Origin: Pocillopora verrucosa
Lineage: Eukaryota > Cnidaria > Anthozoa > Scleractinia > Pocilloporidae
DNA length: 64,000 nucleotides
Direction of reading: 5' to 3'
Assembly (NCBI RefSeq): GCF_036669915.1
Contig: NC_089314.1
Location: forward strand, 25,417,220 to 25,481,219
The first letter of the stretch is position 1; each line of letters begins with the position of its first letter. A program made the position numbers and the translations under genes. The notes below the pieces were generated by a model. It worked only from the letters and a program-made list of their open reading frames with translations. It made no database searches and was not told the origin of the DNA. Positions 13,507-51,781 of this stretch are shown one piece after another.

Positions 13507-16500
13507 CTACACATTCAACAAATTCTTAGCCAAGTGTGGAGAGCGAGAATGTTTGTTTATAAAATGTTTTTGTTGTACGGTCTTGAACTGGTGTAAGAGT
13601 TCCTTGAAATTTATTCTTTGAACATGTTCACGCAATGGGAAGTCATGTGCACCATGAGTATCACTGAAATGAAAGAATGGAAAAGAAAAAAAAATAGCAT
13701 TAAGTCAATCATGCACCATAAGTCTTACAATCCTAAAAGAAAAGAAAATTTGTACACTGACCAAGTGGCCTGTCCAGGAAGAGCTTATTCTGGTTTCTGT
13801 AGCATGAAGCAACAAGAAGTGTTTCCATCCCCCCTGTATGGGATGCTGGTCCATTGCAGGTTACTCCCCCCACTCCAATCAGCATTTTGTCAGGTTTTGC
13901 TTACAGTTCACCAGGAGCCATTTAGGTTCCTGGGTGGGGCATAGTGAGGGTTGTGTCTTGCCAAAGAGCACAACACAATCATGCACCCTGCCTGTTCTCT
14001 AACGCAGACCTCTTGACTTGATTGGGCTACCTTTCAGTTACAGCATCTCTCAAATATGCAGGTGATGGTAGACATCATTGACAAAGGGTGGCCATCAAAT
14101 TTGGGGTATCAAGTACAAGGGACTTGGAAAAAAGAAAAATCTAAATAGCTGACGTCTCTAAGGGTTTATCATTTCTGCCAAAGGCAAACTTTCATAACAA
14201 ACTTAAACATGGAACAAGTATCATAATTAACTACAGTGCTTATCTGAAGAGAATTGACTTTATGGTGAACTAAAATCATCAATAGTTACTTTTAAGGTCA
14301 GTCAAAACCTTTCTTGAAACAGAATTTGTGAATTTTACCTTATGCCAGATGGCAGTGCTCTTCCATTTGGTACACAGTCTAATCTGTTTCTTAAGGTTGT
14401 AAAAGCATCACTTTGTGGAAGGAGCATCAGCAAGCCATACAAGGACTTCAAAAGAAAATGATTTTTTTGTGTGTCCAAAAGCTGGAGACGTAAATCTGTA
14501 AAAAAAAAAATACCCAACTGCATCAAATAGAGTACAAATAACCAGCAACATTGTGTGGTTAACTGGAAAGTTGTTTACTTTATACTGTAATCTGACCTAA
14601 GTTTTATACAAGAATTGTTGCAAACTGCCCCTCTGTTTGCTTTGCTTTTGTTTGTAGTTTGATGCCCGTTGCAGGCCCATCAAAATAGGGCACAACTTGT
14701 AAAAGTACTCAGCCATACTACTCACCAAAATGTCTAATGTGATTATGTCTTACTTGGAGCAATGTACTGAGTGTCAAAAGTAATGCAGGACAGCACTTGT
14801 TTAAATTAATTTTCCTTTGCAATTGGTGAAAAAAACCACCCTCTCAACTAATCAGATGCATGCTACCCACATGTAGAACTAGTCAGGACATTATACTGTT
14901 TACTCTTACTTTTATTAACAGCCAAGAGAAAATCACTGATAACATTAATGAAATTCAGTTCTACATCGTCAGCCTCCAACTCTCAAGAGAAACTTATTTT
15001 AATTTCTTAATTCAAATTGATAGCAAAGGTATGACTCACATGTGAATATTGGAGACTCTATAAGCTGAACCAACTTATCAATCTGAATAAGAAACTCAAC
15101 ATTTACCTCAAGATGTCCACTGGTAAAAATTAAGTCAAGGAAATTTCTAGAGGATGTTGGCTTTGAAGGGTTTTCAGAAAGAAATGGTTAGCTGGATGAT
15201 AGTGTAAAAGAACTGGAAAGACTATTCTAAATGAATAACTAAAAAATAGCCCAGGTCAACAAAATTCTCCAATTTCTAAAGTGCTATGAATAACCTAGCT
15301 ATCATGAAGGAAACTTATCTGATATTCATCCTAACACCCCTCACCCCAATCAAACCCATCACACTACCAATCTCAATTTCTGCTGTATGAAGTGACTAAT
15401 CCATCACAGGTAACTCCAAACCCCTTAGCCTTCAGCCCCTCCCTCCCCTCTCAATCACTCCCACCCATTTCATGTTTTCTGCATTAGACAAAGTTTGCTT
15501 GTCTGTTTCTACTCTTGAGTGGAGGGAGGCAGTGCACTGAAAAATGAATCCAGAATTAGTATCTGGGCATGACAAGGATACAAGATCATAAGCAGTTCGC
15601 AGGCATGTTGGTAGTTCTGTGTCAGTAAACACAGGGATACTGTTGCCACAGGGTTGTGACACCAAGACTGGTATAGACAACAGAAAAGAGAACAGCTCTC
15701 CTGAAAACATAAGAATAATCATGATCACAGTTAATCAACCAGTAGTTAATTATCTCCTAATCATTGAGATAAGCCAAAATGAAAAAAAAATGTAATGACT
15801 CTGCTTACTGCTGTTGCCAGCTCCCTTAGCTGATCTCTGAGGTCAAACAACTCACTGGAAGTGAGTAGAATCATATTCAAATACCGCACCATAAGAGATG
15901 CAAATTGGAAGTCACTTTCTTGAAGGAGAATTTCTGACATTGCTCTGTATATGTCCTCTGCATTTAACAAAAGACAAAGCTGTCTGTAAAAAAGAAAAAA
16001 AGACAACAACTAAGCCTAGTACAAAACTCTCAACATTCAAGAAATTGATCCAAAACAATTGCCTTAAAAGAGATAAATAGGTAACTTAAAGTGTAGCTTC
16101 AACATTTAAAATGATAACCACCAAACTTTCAACAAACCAGGAGCACATTTCTTGCAAGTCCTGGTAACTTTATGGACATAAAGCCATAATTTTAAAATCA
16201 TTATTTTAAGAACAGAGAAGTGGGTTCTGGCATCCTAACTCATCCAAATTTTGTTTCTCTCACTATAGCTATTGCTTCTCTTAGCTATTTTAAGTTTGTC
16301 TATCATAATAATTTTCAAAACTTTTGCAACCCCAACCTTAAATGAAAACAGAACTTCAAGAAAAGGATCCTAGTACAGTGCATTGTCAGCAAAGAGAAAG
16401 GAAAGGCTTTTTTTAACATACCCCATCAATGCCAAGCCAAATTTTTTACCAAATCTCACAAACAAGAAGAAGTAGAATGCTGCAAAAATTGTTACATACA

Positions 16501-19500
16501 GATACATACAGGCACTTTGTGATGTCTACATGATTTGTTAATTTTTTTTTTTGCCAATAATGTTAACAATATATCAACTACCAACTTGTGGATGATGCAT
16601 TACCTCAAAATAAAAGAGCCTCTCTCCTCTAAAAGTTTCCTATCAGTTCTAAAAAGGGACATGACATTGTTCATGAACTTATGAAAGTATTTATTCAGCT
16701 GCCTGTGAGGGGCTGCATTCTGCTCTGAGCCTGGCAAGCTACCTTCAGACATGCTTTGAGAGGGACTGTTCCTTGGAGGACCAGCTGGAGAGGCTGAGAT
16801 CTCTGCAAGTGCTTCTAGGACAAGAAGAACAACCTAAGGAGAAATGTAACCATTATAATCTAAGTTACACATTGACACAACATTAACTATTAGTCCAGAG
16901 TCAACCATGACCCCACTGGGCCTCTCTTACCTCATCTGATGGATCTGACAATGTCTTCAAAAGTTCTGGGAAAAGCTGCTCAATTTGACCAAATATCTGC
17001 AACATATTTCAAATGTTTGTGCAAATGTACAGTCACACAAATAAAGAAAAGTTCAGACTATGATTAAATGAGAATAGCACTATATACATCCTACTAGAAA
17101 AACCCTGCACAATGTGACTGTGAGACTGAAGCACTCATTTTCAAAAGAAAGGCCAACTTTCTCCCTTTCACCCTATGCCCATCAAGCCTCTCTAATTTGC
17201 CTATTTGAAAACTATTCAGAAAGTTCTGACTCTAGAATCCACCTAAATCCTTGGCTTAATTGCTATTATACTAGTTTTCTAAAAATGCTGTTAGTGCAAT
17301 CAAATGGCTGCAAAGTAAAATATGTGAAACTAAGCCTCTATCAACAGAGTTTCTTCAACATAAATATGATATTAAATAATCTACGACAGTTAGACCCACC
17401 TTGTTTGGTGTCTTCATGTGAAGCAATAACACCCATCGTAAAACAGCTATCCTGGTTTGTATAGACTTATGTGATAGCTGCACTGTTAGCACATCTACTA
17501 CAGGGCCAAGATCCAGCTGAGTTTGAGTTTGTGGCTGCACAAAATCATTGTCACAATCCATAGACACAGTGTCACTATCAACATCCTTATCATCATCCTC
17601 TGTAATTAGTCGCATTAAGCTTTGATTGACTGTCTTGGCCACCTCTTTGATATGTGGATAACTGTCAAGGACAGAACTTTGAGTCATGATTATTATCTGG
17701 CATATAGAGCAAATACATCTGCATGAGAGGCAGCTCTACTGAGAAAGCTGGAGGCTGACTTTGCAGACTCCTACCATGGCACCAGAGGAAAACTGAAGCA
17801 CAAAGGCAGAGTGCATAGGGGCAGGTGGGTTATATGAAATGGGAAAGTAAAGGGAGGCATGCACAAACATTTGCAATTCACAAGGGGACATGAAAGTCAT
17901 AGGGGCAACAGTAATGGGAGTAGGGGGGGGAGCAAAACTTTCTCCCCATCCCCCTTTTGTCTCCTTCCCACAAATAGAGTAACTTACCAAAGGACATGAG
18001 AGTTAAAGGGGCAAAAGGTCAGAAAAAACTGAAAAAAATTATTGTTAATCAAATTAGTATGGAAGAAAGAGGGTCTTTAAACAAAGTCGTGATAACAATC
18101 AAAAAAGGATATTCTGTTTATCTTGATCATATGCCATACAAGGTAATATTGCTTTTAAAATTCCTGCATTAAAGGGTAGCATAGTCCGTCCTGATAGTGT
18201 GATGAACTCCCTCAGCCAAGTGATAGCAGTAAATTGTATGACCTCATCTGCAAAAATGACAATATTTTCATTGCTATAACCATGTTCTTGTTAACATCAT
18301 CAAGACTGTCTAATAACTGAGGCTCCACAGATAGCAACTTGAAAATGACTATCATACTACCCTCTGACTGTGAGTGAATAACCAAAATATTGACCATGTC
18401 AGCAAAATTGACATTCTTGGTTTCTCTCTTGATTCCTCTCAGGAACTCACCAAGCGCTGCTTCACACCTACACAATAGGAAAATCAAAAGTGACAATCTT
18501 TCACTCCATTATTAATTCATCATACTGTTTTAGATTACTTTCAACACTCCATTGAAGATTTTCCTTACATAACAGTATTTTAACACTTTAACTCCCAAGA
18601 TCTTATTGTTAATTCTCCTTACTATCTGCCATATAGTTCTTGTGATGTTAGTTCAGAGATTTTTGTATTGGATCAACTAATTATCCCCAAATTGAAAATT
18701 TTCCTAATTCTCATCACTTATCTTGTGGGAGTTGAAGGGTTAGTGACAATATTTCAAATGAATAATAGAACCACTAACATTTTCCTTATCTCAGGATTGC
18801 GGTCCTTGAAAATGTTGAAGAGACCATCAAGGAACTCTGGAAGGTGTGTAATTAGATCCAAATCTGGTACAGCATCAAGCACCACCAACTGGACAAAGAA
18901 CAAACGCCAGGAGTCAATTTTATATCCAAATCATATTATATCTGCACATATTATATGTTAAACCTTTCAGTAAGATGTATGTATCTCCTTATAAGCAGTG
19001 CTAGGACGCATTACACTCACCCAGGAGACCAGGAATTGTTTTGCAAATGGGTTGGCTGTGTAAATTCTGTCTCTCAACAGTGGAATGAAGGAAACTAGGT
19101 CAAATGAGGAGCTTTCTGTCACAATATCCTGCAAAGGAAATTGAAAATTCCAGATTGTTAATGACGTACATAACACATATTATACATAGCAATAGTTTTC
19201 TATAACTGCTTTACACCCTGACATTATTCATATTCTCCACACCATTCTCTTTACATTTCCTATTGTATTAACAAGGAGAATTTGTTGGACAATCAGGAGC
19301 TTCTTAAATTGATGATTATTTCCATCTTTCATTCTCATGACCTTTCAATTTGATTCAAGGGTAAAACTGTGAAGAAAAAATTAGAAGCCAGTCATTGGTA
19401 GGTTGATAGCTTAACAAATTAATTTTCACCATCTTTTGAAGAACTCCATGTTAAAAAAATAGTAATCACTGTTGTTTATCTGAAGGTTAATTCAATTTAT

Positions 19501-22500
19501 CTATAAACATTTGCCTTAGTCTTATTACCCTCATACTCACAAAATGTGAGTTGGAATTTCCACACCCTGCTTTTTCACATTTCCATCAAAACTAGTTAAG
19601 AGAATTTGGTGTTTTATCAGAGGTTAAGGGATAAATTTCTCTATTCTTGCCAGACATTCTGGTTTCAGATATTTCCTTAGATCAATTCTTTTTAAATCAG
19701 TGTCATTTCCATTTCCTTTGTTCTTCAATAATTTTGTAGTTATTGTAATCTAAAAGAAATAAAAAAATCAGTTGACTGGAGTGAAAAAGTTTTCAACCAG
19801 GACAAAATTTGAACCATCAGAGGCTGAGTGTATCCTCCAACAAAGGGTTGCTAAATATTTTCTTCCAAGAGAAGTTACAGAGTTATTGAACTACATCTGG
19901 GTTAACTCTTTAACTCCTAAAAGCGACTTATATCTAATCTCTCGTTACAGTCTCATTGCGAACTCCAAACACGTAGGTAACAAGAATAAAAGAAATGGTA
20001 ACCAACCAAAGAACCTCTTGATTATCAAACTAATTCTCCAGGTCAATACCACAGGAAATGTAAGGAGAACTGTATGGAGAATATCTCTACAGATACTGGG
20101 GTGAAAAGGGTTACTCATCAGTTTTCTTAACCTACCTTGACCAATCTGTCAAGTAGCTCGGCTCCATTTTTTACATTCATATCAGGATCAGCAGCAAGCT
20201 GAAAGGAAAAAAATTGACATCTCAGTCTAATAGAAGTGCATAGATCAAGCCTTAGCTGAATGATGGACTTGTGACAGAGCATCATAAAGGTATACAGTAG
20301 TCTCAACCTTTTAACCATTTGCCCCTGGACATATATTTAGAGGTTCGTGTTATATCTCAATGCTTATAACTCTCACAACCAACTATTATTAGGAACATTT
20401 TAATTTTTAATCTCAGTTTAACTTTAATTAGATATAAACACTATGAAATAAAAACATTACAGCCTGCTTCATGACTGCTGAACACACAATCAAATTGGCT
20501 ACTTAGAGTGCAATTGATAATGGTAATCTGAACTGAAAGAGTGCAATTGATAATGGTAATCTGAACTGAAAGAGTGCAATTTATAATGGTAATAGGACTG
20601 AGTTGAGTCCAATTTGGTCTTTAATCATACGAGTGATTAACAAAATCAGACAACTGAGAAGCGGGAGTCCAATTTGTTAATTACAAGTATGATTACAGAC
20701 ACAATTGGATAACACAAAGTCCTGTTACCAATTAATCAAAATTATGACAAAATTTGTAAAAGAAACTAGACAGCAAGTCTACCTTTTCATAAAAAAAACC
20801 AACAGTTAACTTAGCAAAATGCGAGACAACAGCATGTGCACATGACACGTTCTGTCCACTTACACAAGCATGACATGTTAACTGTCCCTTTAACAGTCCT
20901 ATTACACTGTCCAATTACAAGCATGACGTGTACACTATCCTATTAGTGCTTAAATCAGGTAATTTAATGTTAACAACTGAGTTGAAAACGTAAATTAGCC
21001 ACCATAAAGGGTAAAAAAGCCAATGTTTCGAGCGTTAGCCTTTCATCAGAGCAATAGAAAATCAGACAACTTCAGTGCTTAAATCAGGCTGGTGATAACC
21101 AATCGCATTGGAGAAGTTTTTCATAGTTTTGGTTAGGTCGGAAATTGTATACCTGATTTCAAAATCAAATGAGCACACAGGGCAAGTTTGATTTGAAATC
21201 ACAAAATGATTTCTGCCAAAATTGCTTGACATAAAGCTCAAGTACCAATTCGTTACATCCATTTGGAAATCACAATATTTAATCACCCAAATGAAGAATA
21301 TTAGTCAGAACAATATTTCGTGCTTCCTACGTTGCCTCCTTGCTGCCATTGAAAACAACCATTGTGACATGTGAGAGGAAACTCCAAAATTATAAATTAT
21401 TATTATAATAATTGTAATACCTTTGACAAGGTTAACTTTGACTCACCTTGCTTAGCCCATCAAATACATCATTAAAGAATGGTAACACTGAGCCTCTTGC
21501 AACCTTGGCAATGTTATAAAGTGCCTCACAGGCATAGTAACGAACTCTACTGTCTTGATCATAGAAACAGGTTAACACTGGTGGAATAAGACTTTTCAAA
21601 TATAGACCAGCATCCTAGAAAGAACATTACAAAACACTTCACATCAGCATTATAATCAAAATACAAGGTTAACAAATGTCAAAATTAATAACCGATATGT
21701 CTTCCATCACATATCTTTGAAAATGTCTGAGTTTAAATATTTTACTTTAATGCATTGAGAAATCTTTGCAGGAGCCTTCTTAAGGGTTTTCATTACAAAG
21801 TGTTGTAGAAGGTGAATAGAAAGAAGAATGTTTTCCATAATTGGCTAAAAGTAGCTCAGATCATTGAAATTCAGGAGGAGAATTCTGGGCAGTACAAACA
21901 AGTTTCTTCTATCTTTGTTGCCTGCTGAACATCAACACAATTGTAAATATGACAATTATTCATTTAAGTGTGAGTGCTGGATACTTGCCAAGCAGCAAAG
22001 CTGTGAGGTAAATATCCACCACTTCCAACAAGGCTAATGAGATTAATTGTTTTAGAATACAACACATAAAAACCAAAATATTTGTTTGTTTCTGTCAATA
22101 TACTAAAAATTGTTGGAAATTAAATTCTTGATGTATGATTTTGTCTCTTAGGCTGTTCAGAGGTACTTGCTAATCACTTGCAAATTAGCCAAGCAACACC
22201 TGCAAAAAGGCACTATTCATTGTGTGGTGTATACCAGAAATGAATGTCATTGTTCGTGCTTGTCACTGTTCTTATTATTGTTGTAATCTCTGCTACTAAG
22301 GGGTAAAATGAGACCAGTACATTAAACTTCCTTGAACATAAACTGACTTCCAATAACAGTTACAGTAGTGTTTAAGTGCTTGACAATTAACAAACACAAA
22401 CATCAATCACACATCCGTTAGGTGAAAGCAAATATGGTCACCTTTCCCAGAGCTATAGCTGTGGCAGCGAGTCCAATAAGACCTCCTTTTCTCGAGTGAT

Positions 22501-22984
22501 TATTGTGTGAAACTGCAAATTCGTCAGCGAGCACAGCAGTCAGTCGTTTTATTTGCCTCACGTCGTTACTAGCCACAAATTCTTTTACCATTCTAAAGTA
22601 ATCAAACAGAAGATTTCACGACGAGGAAGCAAAGAAAACACAAACATTTCAACACGTGTGAATCATACTTCATTTACAAACATTTTAGTGCAGTGTCTAA
22701 TCTGATAGGCGAACTTAAGTTTGGTTTACTACGACTTTTCGCTTTGAAGAAGTATACAGCACATAAATAAACGAAAATAGAGCAGGAGATCTCCAAAAAT
22801 AATAAAGCGATTTGACGACTCGCAACAAGATCACACGTACGAGTACTTGTTCCGGAAAACAGGTCATGACTTGACATACTTACCGCTCAATTTCCAAAGC
22901 CGCTGTTTTACGTTTTTCGTAAAGCTTATCATTCAATCCACGAACAACATTCTGTGTCAACGGTAGAAAGTCCTTTTCCGCCAT
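13507..22984 (-). CDS. VAC14: VAC14, scaffold of the PIKfyve complex
   Basis: Sixteen coding exons in transcript order are 22984-22884, 22592-22442, 21614-21447, 20198-20136, 19128-19021, 18888-18779, 18467-18361, 18247-18113, 17653-17400, 16996-16931, 16833-16604, 15983-15809, 15700-15582, 15119-15040, 14495-14339 and 13663-13507. They total 2181 bases and give 726 residues, against 782 in human. VAC14 is the HEAT-repeat scaffold that holds PIKfyve and FIG4 at endolysosomal membranes for phosphatidylinositol 3,5-bisphosphate turnover. Diagnostic stretches are [103 protein letters not shown] and [15 protein letters not shown]. Acidic linkers are shorter than in vertebrates. Fourteen introns fit GT-AG. 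Intron 8 is AT-AC, and intron 13 is GT-AG with U12-type signals. The ATG is supported by the conserved AEKDFLPLT start. Confidence 0.95.
13830..14040 (+). repeat. SINE-like dispersed repeat, copy 2
   Basis: It shares ordered blocks with 8812-9035 (GGGATGCTGGTCCATTGCAG, a C-rich block, CAGCATTTTGTCAGGTT and GGTGGGGCATAGTGAGG). It lies upstream of the last VAC14 exon, inside its final intron. Confidence 0.45.
15120..15581 (-). other. U12-type GT-AG intron in VAC14 (intron 13)
   Basis: Reading on the minus strand, the donor is GTATCCTTG (15581 downwards), a full match to the minor-spliceosome consensus RTATCCTT. Near the 3' end TTCCTTGAC matches the U12 branch-site consensus, with 15 bases from the branch A to the CAG acceptor. 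Splicing here gives [15 protein letters not shown], matching the family register without gaps. Confidence 0.85.
17654..18112 (-). other. U12-type AT-AC intron in VAC14 (intron 8)
   Basis: The minus-strand donor is ATATCCTTTT, a full AT-AC U12 consensus. The 3' end reads GTCCTTGAC, eleven bases, then CAC. This is one mismatch from the branch consensus, at typical spacing. Splicing gives [20 protein letters not shown], aligning without gaps to the family sequence. No GT-AG alternative keeps the register. Confidence 0.88.
18580..18744. mobile_element. TTAA-type short inverted-repeat element, copy 2
   Basis: The left end reads TTAACACTTTAACTCCCAAG. The right end is the complement of CTAACCCTTCAACTCCCACA. 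It sits in VAC14 intron 6 and starts about 35 bp from the exon 6 donor. It has no coding content. Confidence 0.55.
19902..20113. mobile_element. TTAA-type short inverted-repeat element, copy 3
   Basis: The left end reads TTAACTCTTTAACTCC and the right end is the complement of TAACCCTTTTCACCCC. The interior shares the CTTGATTAT and AATTCTCC blocks seen in copies 1 and 2. It lies in VAC14 intron 4. More decayed pieces of the same family may lie at about 19210-19370 and 19510-19635. Confidence 0.55.
20506..20592. repeat. 33-bp tandem repeat, about 2.6 copies
   Basis: Units 20506-20538 and 20539-20571 are identical, beginning GAGTGCAATTGATAATGG. A partial third unit with one change follows to 20592. 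It is in VAC14 intron 3. Confidence 0.85.
20960..21073 (-). mobile_element. Short retroelement-like insertion with 15-bp target duplication
   Basis: The 114-bp insert is flanked by exact 15-bp direct repeats AGTGCTTAAATCAGG at 20945-20959 and 21074-21088. On the minus strand it contains CTGATGAAAGGCTAACGCTC, then GAAAC, TTTTTTACCC and ACGTTTTCAACTCAG. This sequence also forms the arms of the palindrome at 41297-41557 and a truncated copy at 58308-58402. A long target duplication and varied truncation point to target-primed retrotransposition, possibly of a Penelope-like element. Confidence 0.65.
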
Positions 22985-24900: not shown

Positions 24901-25133
24901 TGAAATTCGCAAACGTGACAATACCAAATATCCATTATTTTCGTCTGAGTGAGCCAATGGCTTCCTATTGTACACAACAGGCAAAGTAGTACGCCAATAT
25001 CATCCAGTCACGCAAACTTCTCGAGGCCAATACTGACGCGGCAGAACTTTAAGGCACCTCGTACAGCGAAACTCTTTATTTCGCGCGCAGCATTTGATTT
25101 TAAGCGAATTTTCCTCGGAAACATTGCACAGAA

Positions 25134-25631
25134 ATGGCTGACTGTCCTATCATGCAGATTGACGAAGACTCTCCTGCTGTACCGATGTCAAATTGGGAAG
25201 CCGAAGCGGTCCATGATTATGGAAAAACGTACGCGCAGAAATATTCCGACCTCAGGGATGATCAAGCCACTGTTTGGACGAGCATGTACGAGAAAAACCT
25301 TGGGAGGAAGGTCAGTCGCTTACCGCCATGGGAAGTCTCTGAGACCGGTCGAAAAGAGAGTACAGAAATGCACTTCGGTGACCCTACCAAGAAAGACTTC
25401 GCTTCGGTCATGTTAGAGAGAGCAGCAGAAGCCGGTGCACTGACCCACAAGAAACATTTCGAGACTGCGGAGCAACGGAGGGAGAGGAGAAAAGGAAAGA
25501 AAACTAAAAGCGAAAGTGAATCCAGTAGAGAAGGAGAAGAAGAGAAAAAAGACAAGGAGGAGAACGCAAGGACGTCCTCGCTTTGCCAACATGACGATGA
25601 AAACGCTGAAAACGCCACCGGAAAAGAATAA
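25134..25631 (+). CDS. Uncharacterised single-exon charged protein, 165 aa
   Basis: An uninterrupted frame starts MADCPIMQIDEDSP and ends NAENATGKE. I do not recognise the family. The amino half (about residues 18-95) looks folded, with spaced Trp and Tyr (NWEAEAVHDYGKTY, QATVWTSMYEKNLGRK, RLPPWEVSE) and then FASVMLERAAEAGALTHKKH. The carboxyl half (about 105-165) is a low-complexity Lys/Glu/Ser stretch, probably disordered or coiled. There is no signal peptide or membrane segment. The length, ATG and composition differ from chance frames nearby. A possible polyadenylation signal AATAAA is at 26020-26025. It could be a cnidarian-restricted intracellular protein. Confidence 0.65.
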   Translation: MADCPIMQIDEDSPAVPMSNWEAEAVHDYGKTYAQKYSDLRDDQATVWTSMYEKNLGRKVSRLPPWEVSETGRKESTEMHFGDPTKKDFASVMLERAAEAGALTHKKHFETAEQRRERRKGKKTKSESESSREGEEEKKDKEENARTSSLCQHDDENAENATGKE

Positions 25632-29095: not shown

Positions 29096-30121
29096 TTAAA
29101 CAGCAGCTACTGCGTTGGTAGCGGCGAGCTCCACTGGGACAAGCGATGGTTTTATCATTGCCGTCGACATAACTCGTCGCTCAGCCCAATTGTCGATCCT
29201 TGTTTTCCCTCTTTCTGTTTGCATTGCACTGTAAGCTATCGTACCTGCCATGGCAAGCTCTACCAAGCGAAAGCTCGACTGAAAAGCCAGCCACGGCCAG
29301 GGAGAAGGATGGACGACTTTGCTGTACATACTGTAAACACCTAACATAGAATAGAACTGCAGCCCACACACTGCAAGGCCTAGGAAACTGGTACCAAGTG
29401 TAATCTTAGCCACTTTTGTTGTGCTGGCCTTGCTTGTCGTATTTAATGAAGGACGTACACTTCTCTCCATGGCAATAAGTTGCCGCTGAACATTCTCTAC
29501 GCTGTTCATGACTCGGCATCCACTATAGATGAAGCTACCGGATAGAAACAAACCCCAGATAATGAAGAATGATTGGCACACGATCAGGAGAGGATCCAGT
29601 TCTGGTTTTATGGACGCTGATGTCTCTGCGGTGAAGACAATGATAAAATGTAGAACAATGACAGCAGATAAAAATTTCACATTCTGCAACTTGTTTGGGA
29701 CGATCTGCATTTTAGTGACTTCAAGAAAAGCCAGTTGAATTAGAGAAAATGCTGATGTTAGGCAAGGGTAAGCAACTCCAAAAAGAAGTAGTGTCAGCCA
29801 TTTTGGATCTTCGATACCATTTTGTCTCGACTCGTAAGGATCTAACAATAGATACGCAGATCTAGTAGATCCCAGACCGAACAGCAACAGGTTGATGGCA
29901 AGGAACAAAGGCTTTGAGCCAAATCCTTTTCTGCGGTTAGCGAAAGCTACAGCAATAAATGCATGAATGGCGAGGAGGCCAAATAGGATTCCAAACCCAA
30001 TCCAGTGTAGTTCCCATGCCTGACCCCAAATTTCCCGCGCAACTGGCCAATCAGGACCCGGTTCAGGCAAGGCTTCTGTGGGCAACTTACTGGGATTGTT
30101 TGTCACTGTGGAATTTGACAT
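29096..30121 (-). CDS. PRRT3/PRRT4-like seven-pass membrane protein, copy 1
   Basis: The uninterrupted frame gives 341 residues from MSNSTVTNN to TNAVAAV. The ATG follows a CTCTTAG acceptor at 30125-30126, so the leader contains an intron. A GTG triplet directly before the ATG is not the start. Seven hydrophobic segments lie at about 41-60, 71-93, 109-135, 149-167, 178-201, 240-265 and 275-300. Conserved motifs are EPGPDWPVAREIWGQAW before segment 1, YLLLDPYESRQNG after segment 2, TAETSAS-KPELDPLLIVCQ before segment 5, and SKVVHPSPWPWLAFQS before segment 7. I associate this pattern with proline-rich transmembrane proteins 3 and 4, whose function is poorly known; here the proline-rich part is only a short amino tail. 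Two paralogues follow in the same orientation. A general seven-pass protein of another family is the alternative. Confidence 0.75.
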   Translation of the reverse strand: MSNSTVTNNPSKLPTEALPEPGPDWPVAREIWGQAWELHWIGFGILFGLLAIHAFIAVAFANRRKGFGSKPLFLAINLLLFGLGSTRSAYLLLDPYESRQNGIEDPKWLTLLLFGVAYPCLTSAFSLIQLAFLEVTKMQIVPNKLQNVKFLSAVIVLHFIIVFTAETSASIKPELDPLLIVCQSFFIIWGLFLSGSFIYSGCRVMNSVENVQRQLIAMERSVRPSLNTTSKASTTKVAKITLGTSFLGLAVCGLQFYSMLGVYSMYSKVVHPSPWPWLAFQSSFRLVELAMAGTIAYSAMQTERGKTRIDNWAERRVMSTAMIKPSLVPVELAATNAVAAV

Positions 30122-33023
30122 CACCTAAGAGAATATATTATTTTTTATTGAACTTTGAAGGAGTCCACTCAAACCGAAAAAAAATAAACCAGAATCTAAT
30201 ATATCGTCTAACATATCGTAATTAAAAATCTTAACTGACTCAAGGGCAGTTGGGATAGCAAGTATTTTTGCGTGAACTTGCAGAAATTTCAAATATAACG
30301 GACGCAAAGAAGTGTCTAAAAGTAGCACAGTTTGGGCGTCTAGAAATGATTTCCTGCTTCTTCACAGCATTAAGAGTTGTTGCTGTAAGGTGCTGATTGG
30401 CATTATCTTCAACGTGAAGCCAGTCGGAAAATTCTTGTTTAATTGGGTAGAAAAACACCAAAATAGGACAGTAATACCAATACAGAAAAAGAATTCTGCG
30501 GGGATAAAAAAGATTGAGTACTCGCAAATCGGACAAACTTCAAGTGTTTGCACAAACCGCAAGACGTTGATTCCTCGATTGTTAAGAGAGCATGATGCAG
30601 CGTTTTCAAAAGGCGGATATCTTCAGCCACAAGCAGGTGAAAAAAATTCGTTATCCAATTTTCACGGCATTTTATTTAAGCAAAATAACGTCCGGATACT
30701 CCCCCAGCATGATCTTCGAGAAACGGTTCCTTAAGAAAAAAGATTTTTAATTGATTCAGAGCAGTATTTCATACTGTATGAATCATGCCGATCTTGACGC
30801 TGCATCAAAGAAATACTAATATCTTTTAACACGAATCAGACTCATGTTACAGAAAAGCTATGTTTTCTGTCAGCATTTTAATAAGTAAAAGTAAAAAATT
30901 GCAGATTTTGGGTGAAGATCCGTGATTTTCTCTCGGCAAAGAACTCGAATCTTTAAAGAGCTTTGCTCAATTGCACTTCGTTGTAATCTTAGTTACGCTT
31001 ACCTATCCTCTTTCCTTCATGTTCTAGAAATGCCTATCTTTCTTTATCTTAAAAAGTTTTTCAGAGGCTCAAAAAATGACCAATAGCAAAGTTCAGCATG
31101 ATGTTCATGGTAACAGCAAATGGCAAACCTTGAACCTCTTGCTGGCTGCTCTCAGCCGTTTGTACACTGCAGTGAGAGCTGATTTGCCTCGACTGTGAAC
31201 AAGGAGTTTTTCTCAATTTTTCCACCGTAATTCGGAGGATTACAGGAGAGGTGAGTCTAATCAGAAATATTTTTTTCTATTTACCTCAAGTGCGATTTTG
31301 TCCCCACAAGAACCGCTGTCTATGAGCAAATGAATCCGAAGAATACAGAAACTGTCTGAGTTCTCCTCTACACTTACCAACCATCAAAGTTCTGCGACTC
31401 TGACGTTTCCAAAGAGAAACCAGCTGACAGAGTGGTTGTTATTTAGGTTACTGATATCATTTACCAGGTGAGTCAGTTCCTATTTTAATCACATTTCTTC
31501 CCCAGCGGGATTTTGATGGGATGAAGCATCATGGGATGTAGGCCATGAATAAAGCATAAAGACAATGGTTTCGCATTTCAATTGAATATTTCACGGCCCA
31601 TGTAGGATATCTCTTCCAAGAAAATTCATTATTACTTTAACAATTTAGGGCGGGGAAACAAGGAAAAGAGGTGACAATGAACAAGCTAACTAGATTTTCA
31701 AGACTTTAGTCTTTGTTATGCGAAAACAAAAAGAGACACGACATTTATTTTGATATTGACCCACTGCCTTCGCCCCATTACCTATCAACTTTGTTCCCTA
31801 CTTAATCAATTCGCCTCACGTCTCACTTGACTGTCATGCAATATAACGTTTTTCAGTGGGAGAGTTACAATCATTAATTTTCGCATTGCATGTTACAATC
31901 ACATGCAATAACAAAGCTAAGAAACTACTTAAAAAATTCTTAACTGTTGTAGAATTTTCCTGAAACGACTTTTCCAATATACCTCTGAACAAGCCAAAAC
32001 GGCAGCAGCAGTTGCACTTCTGATGGCTTGAAACCTTGTTCATTTTTATTTTAAACGAGACTGAAAAATTTCAATTAAGTCAAATCTTATCTCTCAAGTC
32101 ACAGTCTGATTTCAAATCGTAGAAAGAGTCATTTTCTAGCAAAAACTCATTATCATATACAATATTCAAAAAGTCAAATTTCTTGGAACAGGTGCCATGT
32201 CAAATGTAATTTAGTAAATGAAACTTTCGTCAAATTATGACCGCTCAGTTTTGAATTGCGTCTTAAAATTAAGACGAGGAGACAAAGCTATTCTTCCAAC
32301 AGAAATTTAATGGAAGGTTCTTCTTCGTAAGGTATGCCAATTGACATATTTTGCGTTTAAAGTACACGATTAAATTGTGTCAAATAAGATGATTGACTCC
32401 CGTGTCAAAAATGATATGGCTCATCACGTACTAGCGGAATAGTCTGGAATCCCTAATTACTACACAGCAGAATCTCACAATAACCTAAACCAAATGTTCC
32501 ATTCGTATCTAAGACTCTGCAGGTTTAGTATTTTACGAGGGGCCAGTAGATTATTAAGAAATAGCTACCATGGCAATAGTTCGAGCAAAGAAACTAATTG
32601 GCCGGAATTATGCTTAAAAAGATCAGTCGTTGGTAGTTTCTGGAAAATATTTGAGATTCTATGAAATGACATACATCTTAAAGTTAAAGATGATTTCTGG
32701 ACTTAAGGTACATAAAATTATTACGCCTGGCAGGAAAGTAAGACTCAAAGAATGTTGCCAGCTTCCCCGTGGGGATTCCACCCACAACAATTTCGAATAA
32801 TCTCACGTTCGGCTAAAGTACGAAATTAGCTGCAGGAAACTCTTTCACGAGCCAGGCTTTACTAGAATCAACAACTTCAAAAGCGTTCGTGTGGGTTTAG
32901 AGTTAAAATCTTGATAGTTTCGTACATATAAAGTGTTACTTTCACTCAAACGATGATCGGTTCAGAATTTTGTGGAAAATAAATACATAATACCTGATAT
33001 AGGAGCTATTTTAACTAACCTAC

Positions 33024-35631: not shown

Positions 35632-36609
35632 CTATTGTGGTTTAATTCTTGAGGACAAATTCACTCCCTCGGTCCCACTCACAGCGTTGTCTTTCTTGTT
35701 TCCCCCTTCCCTTTGCATCACACTGTAGGCTATCGTGCCTGCCATGGCAAGCTCAACGAGGCGAAAGCCCGATTGAAAAGCTAGCCAGGGCCAAGGAGAG
35801 GGATGAACGACTTTGCTGTACAAACCGTATACGCCCACCATGGAATAGAAATTCAACGCACAAACAGCAATTCCCAGGATGCTCGTGCCAATGGTTATCT
35901 TAGCCACTTTAGTTGTGCCAGACTTTACTTTCTTGTTTCGCAGTCGCTCGTTTTTCTCAATCGAATTCAGTTGCTCGTGAACGTTTTCCACTCGCCTGAT
36001 AACTTTGCATCCGCTGTAGATGAAGCTACCAGAAAGCAGTAAGCCCCAGAGAATGAAGAAAGACTGGCACACGATCAACAGGGGGTCCAGTTCTGGCTTC
36101 ATGGAGGCGGAGGTCTCTGCGACCAATACAATGATGAAGTGGATCACAATGACAACAGAGATAAATTTCACATTCTGCAGCTTGTTTGGACCAACTTTCA
36201 GCTTAGTAACCTCCAGAAAAGCCAGATGTATCAAACAAAACGAGGAAGTTAGACATGGAAAAGCGATTCCAAAGAGAAGTAGTGTCATCCACTGTGGATC
36301 CTGCACGCCATTTTCTCTAGATTCGTACGGATCTAACAATAAATACACGGATCTGGTTAATCCGAGCACAAGGAGCATCACGTTTATGGCCACAAACAAT
36401 GGCTTGCGAGCGAATCCTCTCCTATGATTCACCATCACTATGGCAACGAAGGAATGAACGGCCACCAAGCCAAACAAGATACCGAACCCAACCCAGTGTA
36501 GCTCCCATGCCAAGCCCCAAATTTTCTTCGCAATTGGCCAATCAGGGCCCGGTTCGGCTACGGCTGCAGTTGTCGGCTGTTCAACGGATTTACTTGCAAA
36601 ATTCGACAT
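35632..36609 (-). CDS. PRRT3/PRRT4-like seven-pass membrane protein, copy 2
   Basis: The frame gives 325 residues from MSNFASKSVEQ to SRIKPQ. An upstream in-frame ATG at 36633 lies before a TTTGATTTGCAG acceptor (AG at 36623-36624), so it is intronic. The ATG at 36609 is preferred and lines up with MSNST of copy 1. The seven hydrophobic segments and motifs are as in copy 1 (EPGPDWPIAKKIWGLAW, YLLLDPYESRENG, AETSASMKPELDPLLIVC, SKVVHPSPWPWLAFQS), and it is the closest paralogue of that copy. The loop between segments 5 and 6 is more basic (KNERLRNKKVKSGTTK) and the carboxyl tail is shorter and unrelated. The close match with different tails suggests a fairly recent tandem duplication. Confidence 0.75.
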   Translation of the reverse strand: MSNFASKSVEQPTTAAVAEPGPDWPIAKKIWGLAWELHWVGFGILFGLVAVHSFVAIVMVNHRRGFARKPLFVAINVMLLVLGLTRSVYLLLDPYESRENGVQDPQWMTLLLFGIAFPCLTSSFCLIHLAFLEVTKLKVGPNKLQNVKFISVVIVIHFIIVLVAETSASMKPELDPLLIVCQSFFILWGLLLSGSFIYSGCKVIRRVENVHEQLNSIEKNERLRNKKVKSGTTKVAKITIGTSILGIAVCALNFYSMVGVYGLYSKVVHPSPWPWLAFQSGFRLVELAMAGTIAYSVMQREGGNKKDNAVSGTEGVNLSSRIKPQ

Positions 36610-36659
36610 TAGTGATAAAGGTCTGCAAATCAAACATAAGAATGCTCATTTCTTTAATG

Positions 36660-50107: not shown

Positions 50108-51115
50108 TTAACAGTTCCCAGGCTTGATTATATCTTTGCTGATGTCGTTGCTGTGATTGTTGGTTTTGCTTATTTCTCTTACTGAGGAGCGTTGCATAAC
50201 ACTGTAGGCTATGGTGCAAGCCATGAAGAATTCCACAAGTCTAAAACACGTTTGATATGTCCACCACGGCCAGGGAGCTGGGTTTACAACTTTGCTATAT
50301 AAGCTGTACACGCCAAAGAGGGAATATAGCTGCAGTCCACAGCATGCAAATCCTAAAATACTTGTTGCCAGGGTGATCTTTGCAACTTTAATAGTTCCTG
50401 TTGCTTGTCTTGGTCGACCCACCCCATCAGCCGTTCCGATCTGGACCATTTGGAGTTCTCTCTGAACGGTAAGATCGTGTTGAATTACTTTTAATCCGCT
50501 GTAAATAAAGCTTGTCGAGAGGAGGAAGCCCCAAAGAATGAATAACGACTGGCATACAATAATCAATGGTGTAAGCTCGGCTTTCATAGCGGTTACTGTT
50601 TCTGCCGTTACGACGATCGCAAAGTGAATTGTGATAACCATGCTTAAGAAGGACACACTTTGAAGCTTTTTGGATCCTATTTGGACCTTAGAGACTTCAA
50701 TAAATGCCAAGTGTATAAGGCAGAAGGAGGAAGTCAAACAGGGAAATGTGATACCGTACAATAAATTCGTCAGCCAAGGTGGGACCTTTAAACCATTTGT
50801 CCTTGACTCGTAAGGATCCAAAAACAAAAACAAGGCTCGTGTCACTCCTTGTGTCAGAACCAATACATTGACAGCGACGACCAAAGGCTTTCTACCAAAT
50901 CCTTCCCTCTTTCTGACTTGCGCTAGGGCGATGAAGGAGCGCAGAGCTAACATGCTGAAAATGATACCGAATCCAGCCCAGTGCACCTGCCAAGCTACTC
51001 CCCAAATCTGTGTTGCTACTTCCCAGTCAGGGCCTGGCTCAGGATGAGGGTCAGCATGTGGTTCGGCAGTGGCCTGTGAGGATGTTGTGCTCTTGGTCGA
51101 CGGAGGATTAGGCAT
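50108..51115 (-). CDS. PRRT3/PRRT4-like seven-pass membrane protein, copy 3
   Basis: The frame gives 335 residues from MPNPPSTKSTTSSQ to DIIKPGNC. The amino tail is longer and richer in Pro, Ser and Thr than in copies 1 and 2, ending ADPHPEPGPDWEVATQIWG. Seven hydrophobic segments occupy the same places. The hallmark motifs are kept with changes: FLFLDPYESRTNG, TAETVTAMKAELTPLIIVCQ and SKVVNPAPWPWWTYQT. It is the most diverged of the three. A TAGTTCAG acceptor just upstream of the ATG, near 51135, again suggests a leader intron. The 13.5 kb to copy 2 hold only repeats and the relic at 48714. Confidence 0.75.
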   Translation of the reverse strand: MPNPPSTKSTTSSQATAEPHADPHPEPGPDWEVATQIWGVAWQVHWAGFGIIFSMLALRSFIALAQVRKREGFGRKPLVVAVNVLVLTQGVTRALFLFLDPYESRTNGLKVPPWLTNLLYGITFPCLTSSFCLIHLAFIEVSKVQIGSKKLQSVSFLSMVITIHFAIVVTAETVTAMKAELTPLIIVCQSLFILWGFLLSTSFIYSGLKVIQHDLTVQRELQMVQIGTADGVGRPRQATGTIKVAKITLATSILGFACCGLQLYSLFGVYSLYSKVVNPAPWPWWTYQTCFRLVEFFMACTIAYSVMQRSSVREISKTNNHSNDISKDIIKPGNC

Positions 51116-51781
51116 AATTAAAGAAACTGTACTGAACTAGCACAGCTTACGATTGAGAGACTTAGAGATAAATGAAATAAGCTCAGTCTTAAAATCCACT
51201 TTACTCTCCTAAAAATGCTTATTACCCAAAGCTGTGTAAATGTTATACGAATTCGCAAAGACAGTATTTTACTACTTTGTTTGTTGCCTTGGAGATAAGC
51301 AAATATTAGTAACAAACGCTTGACACATCATGGACTTAACTCGATGTTGCAGATACCTTCTTGAACCACTTTAGTCTAATAAATTAGCGACTTATGTCTT
51401 AATGTGCCAGACTTCTTGAAGTCGATCGAGGAACCTTTGAGAGCTGTGGCCGTCAATATAAACCAGCTTTCTTAAGACGCAGAAACAAAATCGTCACAAA
51501 GGCACTAAACACGGATTGAATTTGGACACGCCAGTCTTCACGGAGGAAAACCGTATCCAGCCCTTTGTGCTGACCTCTTGTGCAGTCCTGAGCAGGCGCA
51601 GTCGCCCAGAATCTTTCAAAAAGCCACTTTGCATTCGCTCATCCTTTAGTTCAGAATACCGCAAAAGTGTTTTCCGGGGCCATGGCAGCCTTGAAGGCGA
51701 TAAATAAATAAAATTAATACTTTGAATACAGCTTAAAATCAAATGCAAGGTGCAGTTTTAACCGAATCACCCACTTCTTAC

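Follow-up and report, generated by a model that had tools for sequence, protein, structure and literature searches.

The VAC14 gene and its introns 8 and 13

The window, the whole stretch of 64 kb that we analysed, carries a VAC14 gene on its minus strand. The gene and the features that bear on the splicing of its introns 8 and 13 are as follows.

13507..22984, minus strand: VAC14 gene, 16 coding exons, 726 amino acids plus stop
18113..18247, minus strand: VAC14 exon 8
17654..18112, minus strand: VAC14 intron 8, probable AT-AC U12-type intron, 459 nt, phase 1
18104..18112, minus strand: candidate U12-type 5' splice site of intron 8, ATATCCTTT, 9/9 to RTATCCTTT
17664..17672, minus strand: candidate branch site of intron 8, GTCCTTGAC, 8/9 to TTCCTTRAY
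17654..17655, minus strand: terminal dinucleotide AC of intron 8 (CCAC, then ATATC)
17400..17653, minus strand: VAC14 exon 9
15120..15581, minus strand: VAC14 intron 13, probable U12-type intron with GT-AG ends, 462 nt, phase 2
15573..15581, minus strand: candidate U12-type 5' splice site of intron 13, GTATCCTTG, 8/9
15134..15142, minus strand: candidate branch site of intron 13, TTCCTTGAC, 9/9, with 15 nt from the branch A to exon 14

The 16 exons join into a single complete open reading frame. A Pfam search with the translated protein matched Vac14_Fig4_bd (PF11916) at residues 486-664 with an E value of 1.8e-78, covering profile positions 1-179 of 179, and Vac14_Fab1_bd (PF12755) at residues 67-162 with an E value of 1.8e-46, which bears out the name VAC14 given to the gene by an earlier sequence-only reading. 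When the genome was searched with the same protein, all 15 matches listed fell inside this one gene, and no second copy was found among them, nor a processed copy of the kind that could have served as proof of splicing. Human VAC14 was sought in the PDB and was absent among the 10 sequences matched, which were weak matches to HEAT proteins such as transportin-1; no relatives were found in viral contigs.

Other open frames were observed in the window. Three related uninterrupted frames of about 340 amino acids, at 29096-30124, 35632-36645, and 50108-51136 on the minus strand, have the sequence (F/L)YS(M/L)xGVY(S/G)(M/L)YSKVV(H/N)P(S/A)PWPW in common. An open frame of 175 amino acids lies upstream of VAC14 on the opposite strand (25104-25631, plus). 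Neither these three frames nor the 175-residue one gave a Pfam or NCBIfam match at E values up to 0.001.

Read on the minus strand, intron 8 runs from 18112 as its first base to 17654 as its last, starts with ATATCCTTTT, and ends with CCAC, so that its two ends read ATATCCTTTTTT...GTCCTTGACAGTTATCCAC. The branch-site consensus of U12-type introns takes the form TTCCTTRAY. The U12 donor consensus is RTATCCTTT in PMC2846911, where the branch consensus is given as UCCUUAACU. Scored against RTATCCTTT and TTCCTTRAY, introns 8 and 13 reached 9/9 and 8/9 at the donor and 8/9 and 9/9 at the branch site, respectively; the remaining 13 VAC14 introns, all GT-AG, reached 2-5/9 at the donor and at best 4-7/9 at the branch site. 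The sequence-only reading had proposed an AT-AC intron at 17654..18112 with a U12-type donor, a branch signal eleven bases before the acceptor, and an AC end. Its limits proved right, and we recovered each of the signals: the 9/9 donor, the 8/9 branch site with 11 nt between its A and exon 9, and the CCAC terminus. Intron 8 thus resembles the AT-AC subtype of U12-type introns in its donor, branch site, branch-acceptor distance, and AC end, as well as in its phase 1 and its setting among major introns, and shows no departure from that class.

Intron 13 ends with CAG. Its join, LLMIF-GHLEV, lies at residue 596 inside Vac14_Fig4_bd, the profile of which is matched from its first to its last position across this junction. 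Intron 13 is like the GT-AG subtype of U12-type introns in its GTATCCTT donor, TTCCTTGAC branch site, and AG end, but differs as a second minor intron within one gene; in the accessible part of PMC10639083, we found nothing on how frequently a gene has a second minor intron. Judged from these signals, VAC14 here appears to hold two minor introns, the first AT-AC and the second GT-AG. The sequence-only reading had mentioned neither intron 13 as a minor intron nor the placement ambiguity of intron 8 described below.

The motifs were also compared with their chance level. The intron 8 donor motif ATATCCTTT has an expected count of 1.08 in the window and was observed once. Over 30 first-order simulations of 64 kb, donor/branch pairs scoring at least 8/9 each averaged 26.9 and pairs at 17/18 averaged 2.03 (six at most); the window itself has 19 and four, respectively. 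Motif strength by itself is therefore near the chance level in 64 kb and is not remarkable. Two of the four pairs at 17/18 coincide exactly with two junctions required by the VAC14 reading frame, and the excess over chance is this coincidence of two motif pairs with the protein register.

Reading frame and alternative junctions at intron 8

The two joins, at introns 8 and 13, were both gap-free when aligned with fragments taken to be human VAC14. The gap-free join claimed earlier for intron 8 was reproduced, in phase 1; the alignment with the human fragment is to be read as a lead rather than as a database result. We then enumerated alternative junctions with donors in 18227..17700, acceptors in 18050..17420, and an intron length of at least 40, and asked of each whether it kept both conserved flanks, namely CMAYD upstream and an 11-residue stretch downstream. 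There were 693 GT-AG pairs, 12 of them in frame and open, and 723 GC-AG pairs, of which 53 were open. Among the AT-AC alternatives (985 pairs, 77 open), five kept both flanks, and a U12-type donor was present only in 18112/17654.

These counts bear directly on the idea that the major spliceosome cuts at nearby GT-AG or GC-AG sites and that some residues are lost or gained as a result. The downstream flank survived in an open frame in four GT-AG pairs, which share the donor at 18207, and in 15 GC-AG pairs. However, both flanks were kept in none of the 12 open GT-AG pairs and none of the 53 open GC-AG pairs, the upstream flank being lost. The earlier statement that no GT-AG choice saves the register accordingly held for all 693 pairs tried, rescue of the junction by GT-AG or GC-AG sites was rejected on this enumeration, and we consider splicing by the major spliceosome here very improbable. 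A subtler alternative leaves the junction identical and moves the cut two bases further in, which would make intron 8 an AT-AT intron. The sequence ATATC is present at both ends of the intron, and therefore six placements (slides 0-5) yield an identical mRNA, slide 2 being the AT-AT one; spliced reads by themselves could not separate AT-AC from AT-AT at this intron. Such introns do exist, AT-AT being given in PMC10639083 as the second commonest non-canonical terminus of minor introns in animals. The shifted donor ATCCTTTTT, however, misfits RTATCCTTT, and among slides 0-5 the U12 consensus fits in slide 0 only, where the donor scores 9/9 and the branch A lies 11 nt from the exon. We therefore allow the AT-AT placement only a slim chance, comparable to that of the major spliceosome. 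Least probable of all, and hardly worth entertaining, is a VAC14 locus that has decayed or been mis-assembled so that the junction is an artefact; one complete frame extends over 16 exons, and none of the 15 genome matches listed, all in this gene, looks processed.

Our preferred reading, to which we assign a probability of about 0.95, is that intron 8 is a genuine AT-AC intron that would be removed in the animal by the minor spliceosome, and that intron 13 belongs to the minor class as well, as a GT-AG member. U11 would recognize AUAUCCUUUU at the intron 8 donor, U12 would pair with the branch site and leave the branch A bulged, U4atac/U6atac.U5 would then take over from U11, and exons 8 and 9 would be joined in phase 1, the order of these steps being that of the established mechanism. 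The minor-spliceosome reading proposed earlier for intron 8 is supported by the three U12 signals, the failure of GT-AG sites to rescue the frame, the four minor snRNA genes described below, and the complementarity to U11 and U12. Intron 8 belongs to a known class and is ordinary within it; what is added here is intron 13 and the U6atac box. In the literature searched, with supplementary intron lists outside the search, we found nothing linking VAC14 with minor (U12) introns or the minor spliceosome.

Minor snRNA genes and the U6atac box

Minor introns were to be expected here because, according to PMC10639083, Acropora corals have an average minor-intron density higher than that of most vertebrates. 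All four minor snRNAs have also been reported from the Hydractinia genome (PMC11067881). We searched the genome (353 Mb, 52 contigs) for the corresponding genes and scored the best candidates with Rfam. Among these, one gene each was above the Rfam cut-off for U11 (91.9 bits), U12 (103.3 bits), U4atac (55.3 bits against a cut-off of 53), and U6atac (104.6 bits, a full-length match to RF00619). Matches below the cut-off were also listed, two for U12 (the best 40.2 against 53), two for U4atac, and 13 for U6atac (the best 29.6 against 33). The 5' end of U11, CAAAAGGG, is complementary to the VAC14 donors and pairs with positions +4 to +10 in intron 8, +4 as a G-U pair. U12 carries GAGTAAGGAAA, in which AAGGA pairs with the UCCUU of both VAC14 branch sites; in the lowest-energy U12 duplexes the branch A was not exactly bulged, and the bases left out were A, C, and A for intron 8 and G for intron 13. 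An snRNA promoter element, (G/C)(T/A)CCCACA(A/T)GG, was observed at about -60 in the U11, U12, and U4atac genes (among loci L005, L002, L006, L009, and L082-L085), and related sequences were observed at -66 to -71 in the U6 and U6atac genes.

The only U6atac above the cut-off has the following position.

L009, 1625..1501, minus strand: U6atac gene

It is like U6atac RF00619 in its full-length match, U4atac-pairing region, 3' stem-loop, and T-run end, and differs from it at nucleotides 12-14 (L009 1612-1614, G000:C9, minus strand), which read GCC against AAG in the Rfam consensus. The box thus reads UAUGAGCCGAGAGAAGG instead of UAUGAAAGGAGAGAAGG, and the altered part is the one that normally pairs with the 5' splice site. 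Mutants and suppressors have shown that CC5/6 of the donor pairs with GG14/15 of U6atac (PMC4980772). The intron 8 5' splice site does not pair in this way with the genome's U6atac, and the departure sits in the U6atac gene; against the Rfam consensus box, the same donor pairs at +4 to +9. Counted in register with the genome's U6atac, +4 and +5 of intron 8 pair, +6 and +7 mismatch, +8 forms a G-U pair, and +9 pairs, as it does across the minor introns wherever that base is U.

We looked for a further copy with a whole-genome pattern search able to catch the canonical box. The only match with zero mismatches was at the L009 U6atac. Three further sites matched with two mismatches each, no more than the four given by the backward control, and no U6atac was found at their loci by Rfam at E values up to 1. 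No box was seen in L010, one of the best Rfam matches below the cut-off, and none was found in viral and bacterial/archaeal contigs. In coral and Nematostella literature on U6atac, as far as its accessible parts extend, we found nothing on an altered box.

Predicted duplex energies were mixed. With U6atac nucleotides 8-24, the genome box and the consensus box gave the same value for intron 8 (-7.4 each), the duplex having slid to GAGAAGG, and -7.5 vs -9.9 for intron 13. With nucleotides 8-18, the values were -0.9 vs -7.1 for intron 8 and -4.0 vs -7.1 for intron 13. The statement on pairing accordingly rests on the register count instead. Pairing may shift onto the downstream GAGAAGG, because the free duplex prediction slides there and leaves no difference at intron 8. 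GAGAAGG would otherwise be engaged with U12.

The gene's complementarity to U4atac and its promoter spacing look intact and, with its T-run end, suggest that it is alive. The U4atac-binding part, CGATAAGGACG, is the perfect complement of CGTCCTTATCG in the genome's own U4atac, and both RNAs depart from the Rfam consensus in this stretch. The promoter element lies at -66, as it does in all but one of the four U6 genes found (there at -71), and AATAAAAA follows at about -32 to -25. With a score of 7.5, against 7.2 for one U6 gene, the promoter element fits its matrix, built from three sites, weakly, and two of 1380 background positions reach 7.5. The gene ends with TTTTT.

Probable minor introns elsewhere and the possible meaning of the altered box

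We further searched for other minor introns in the genome. A strict branch-site-plus-YAC pattern gave 80 matches genome-wide against 151 for the control, with no enrichment, and the branch motif alone therefore identifies nothing. Of the 80 matches listed, 49 were inspected, from 30 loci extended by 1.5 kb upstream together with 20 regions of which one was misplaced, and real minor introns were chosen by the joined reading frame. Exact ATATCCTT donors were present upstream at eight sites, and the joined frame was convincing at four of them.

L037: probable AT-AC minor intron, P4-ATPase, PF16212 across the join
L032: probable AT-AC minor intron, HSBP1, PF06825 across the join
L071: probable AT-AC minor intron, cation channel, PF00520 across the join
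L075: probable AT-AC minor intron, presumably of a ZDHHC17-like protein, joined frame and no Pfam match

The joined frame was unconvincing at L036, L066, L067, and L078, and the Na/H exchanger loci gave no convincing case. CC at +5/+6 and UU at +7/+8 were present in all six minor introns (two in VAC14 and four others), a sample biased to canonical donors by the search itself, which admitted at most one mismatch to the canonical sequence. It shows that canonical donors persist in this genome and is silent on the absence of others.

With CC kept at +5/+6 and GCC in the box, +6 and +7 therefore mismatch U6atac. Such a mismatch in the sole U6atac above the cut-off is not what a canonical minor spliceosome predicts. 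Either the GCC-box U6atac functions despite weaker pairing, or the assembly lacks a canonical copy. We tentatively put the former, in the specific form that follows, at somewhat less than even odds: the minor spliceosome would run on a U6atac in which AGCCGAG has replaced AAAGGAG as the box, with +4/+5 paired and +6/+7 not; U11 alone would keep CC at +5/+6 under selection; and the exchange of U11 for U6atac would depend on fewer pairs, on proteins, or on shifted pairing at GAGAAGG.

For annotation, a gene model that allows only GT-AG introns will be interrupted within VAC14 at intron 8; intron 13 is to be treated as U12-type. If a canonical U6atac copy is missing from the assembly, the case would caution that a single assembly is not a safe basis for calling snRNA gene sets. 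If G14 is absent from the sole assembled U6atac of this coral and CC5/6 is nevertheless kept in its minor introns, the animal would provide a natural test of how far the helix between CC5/6 and GG14/15 is required.
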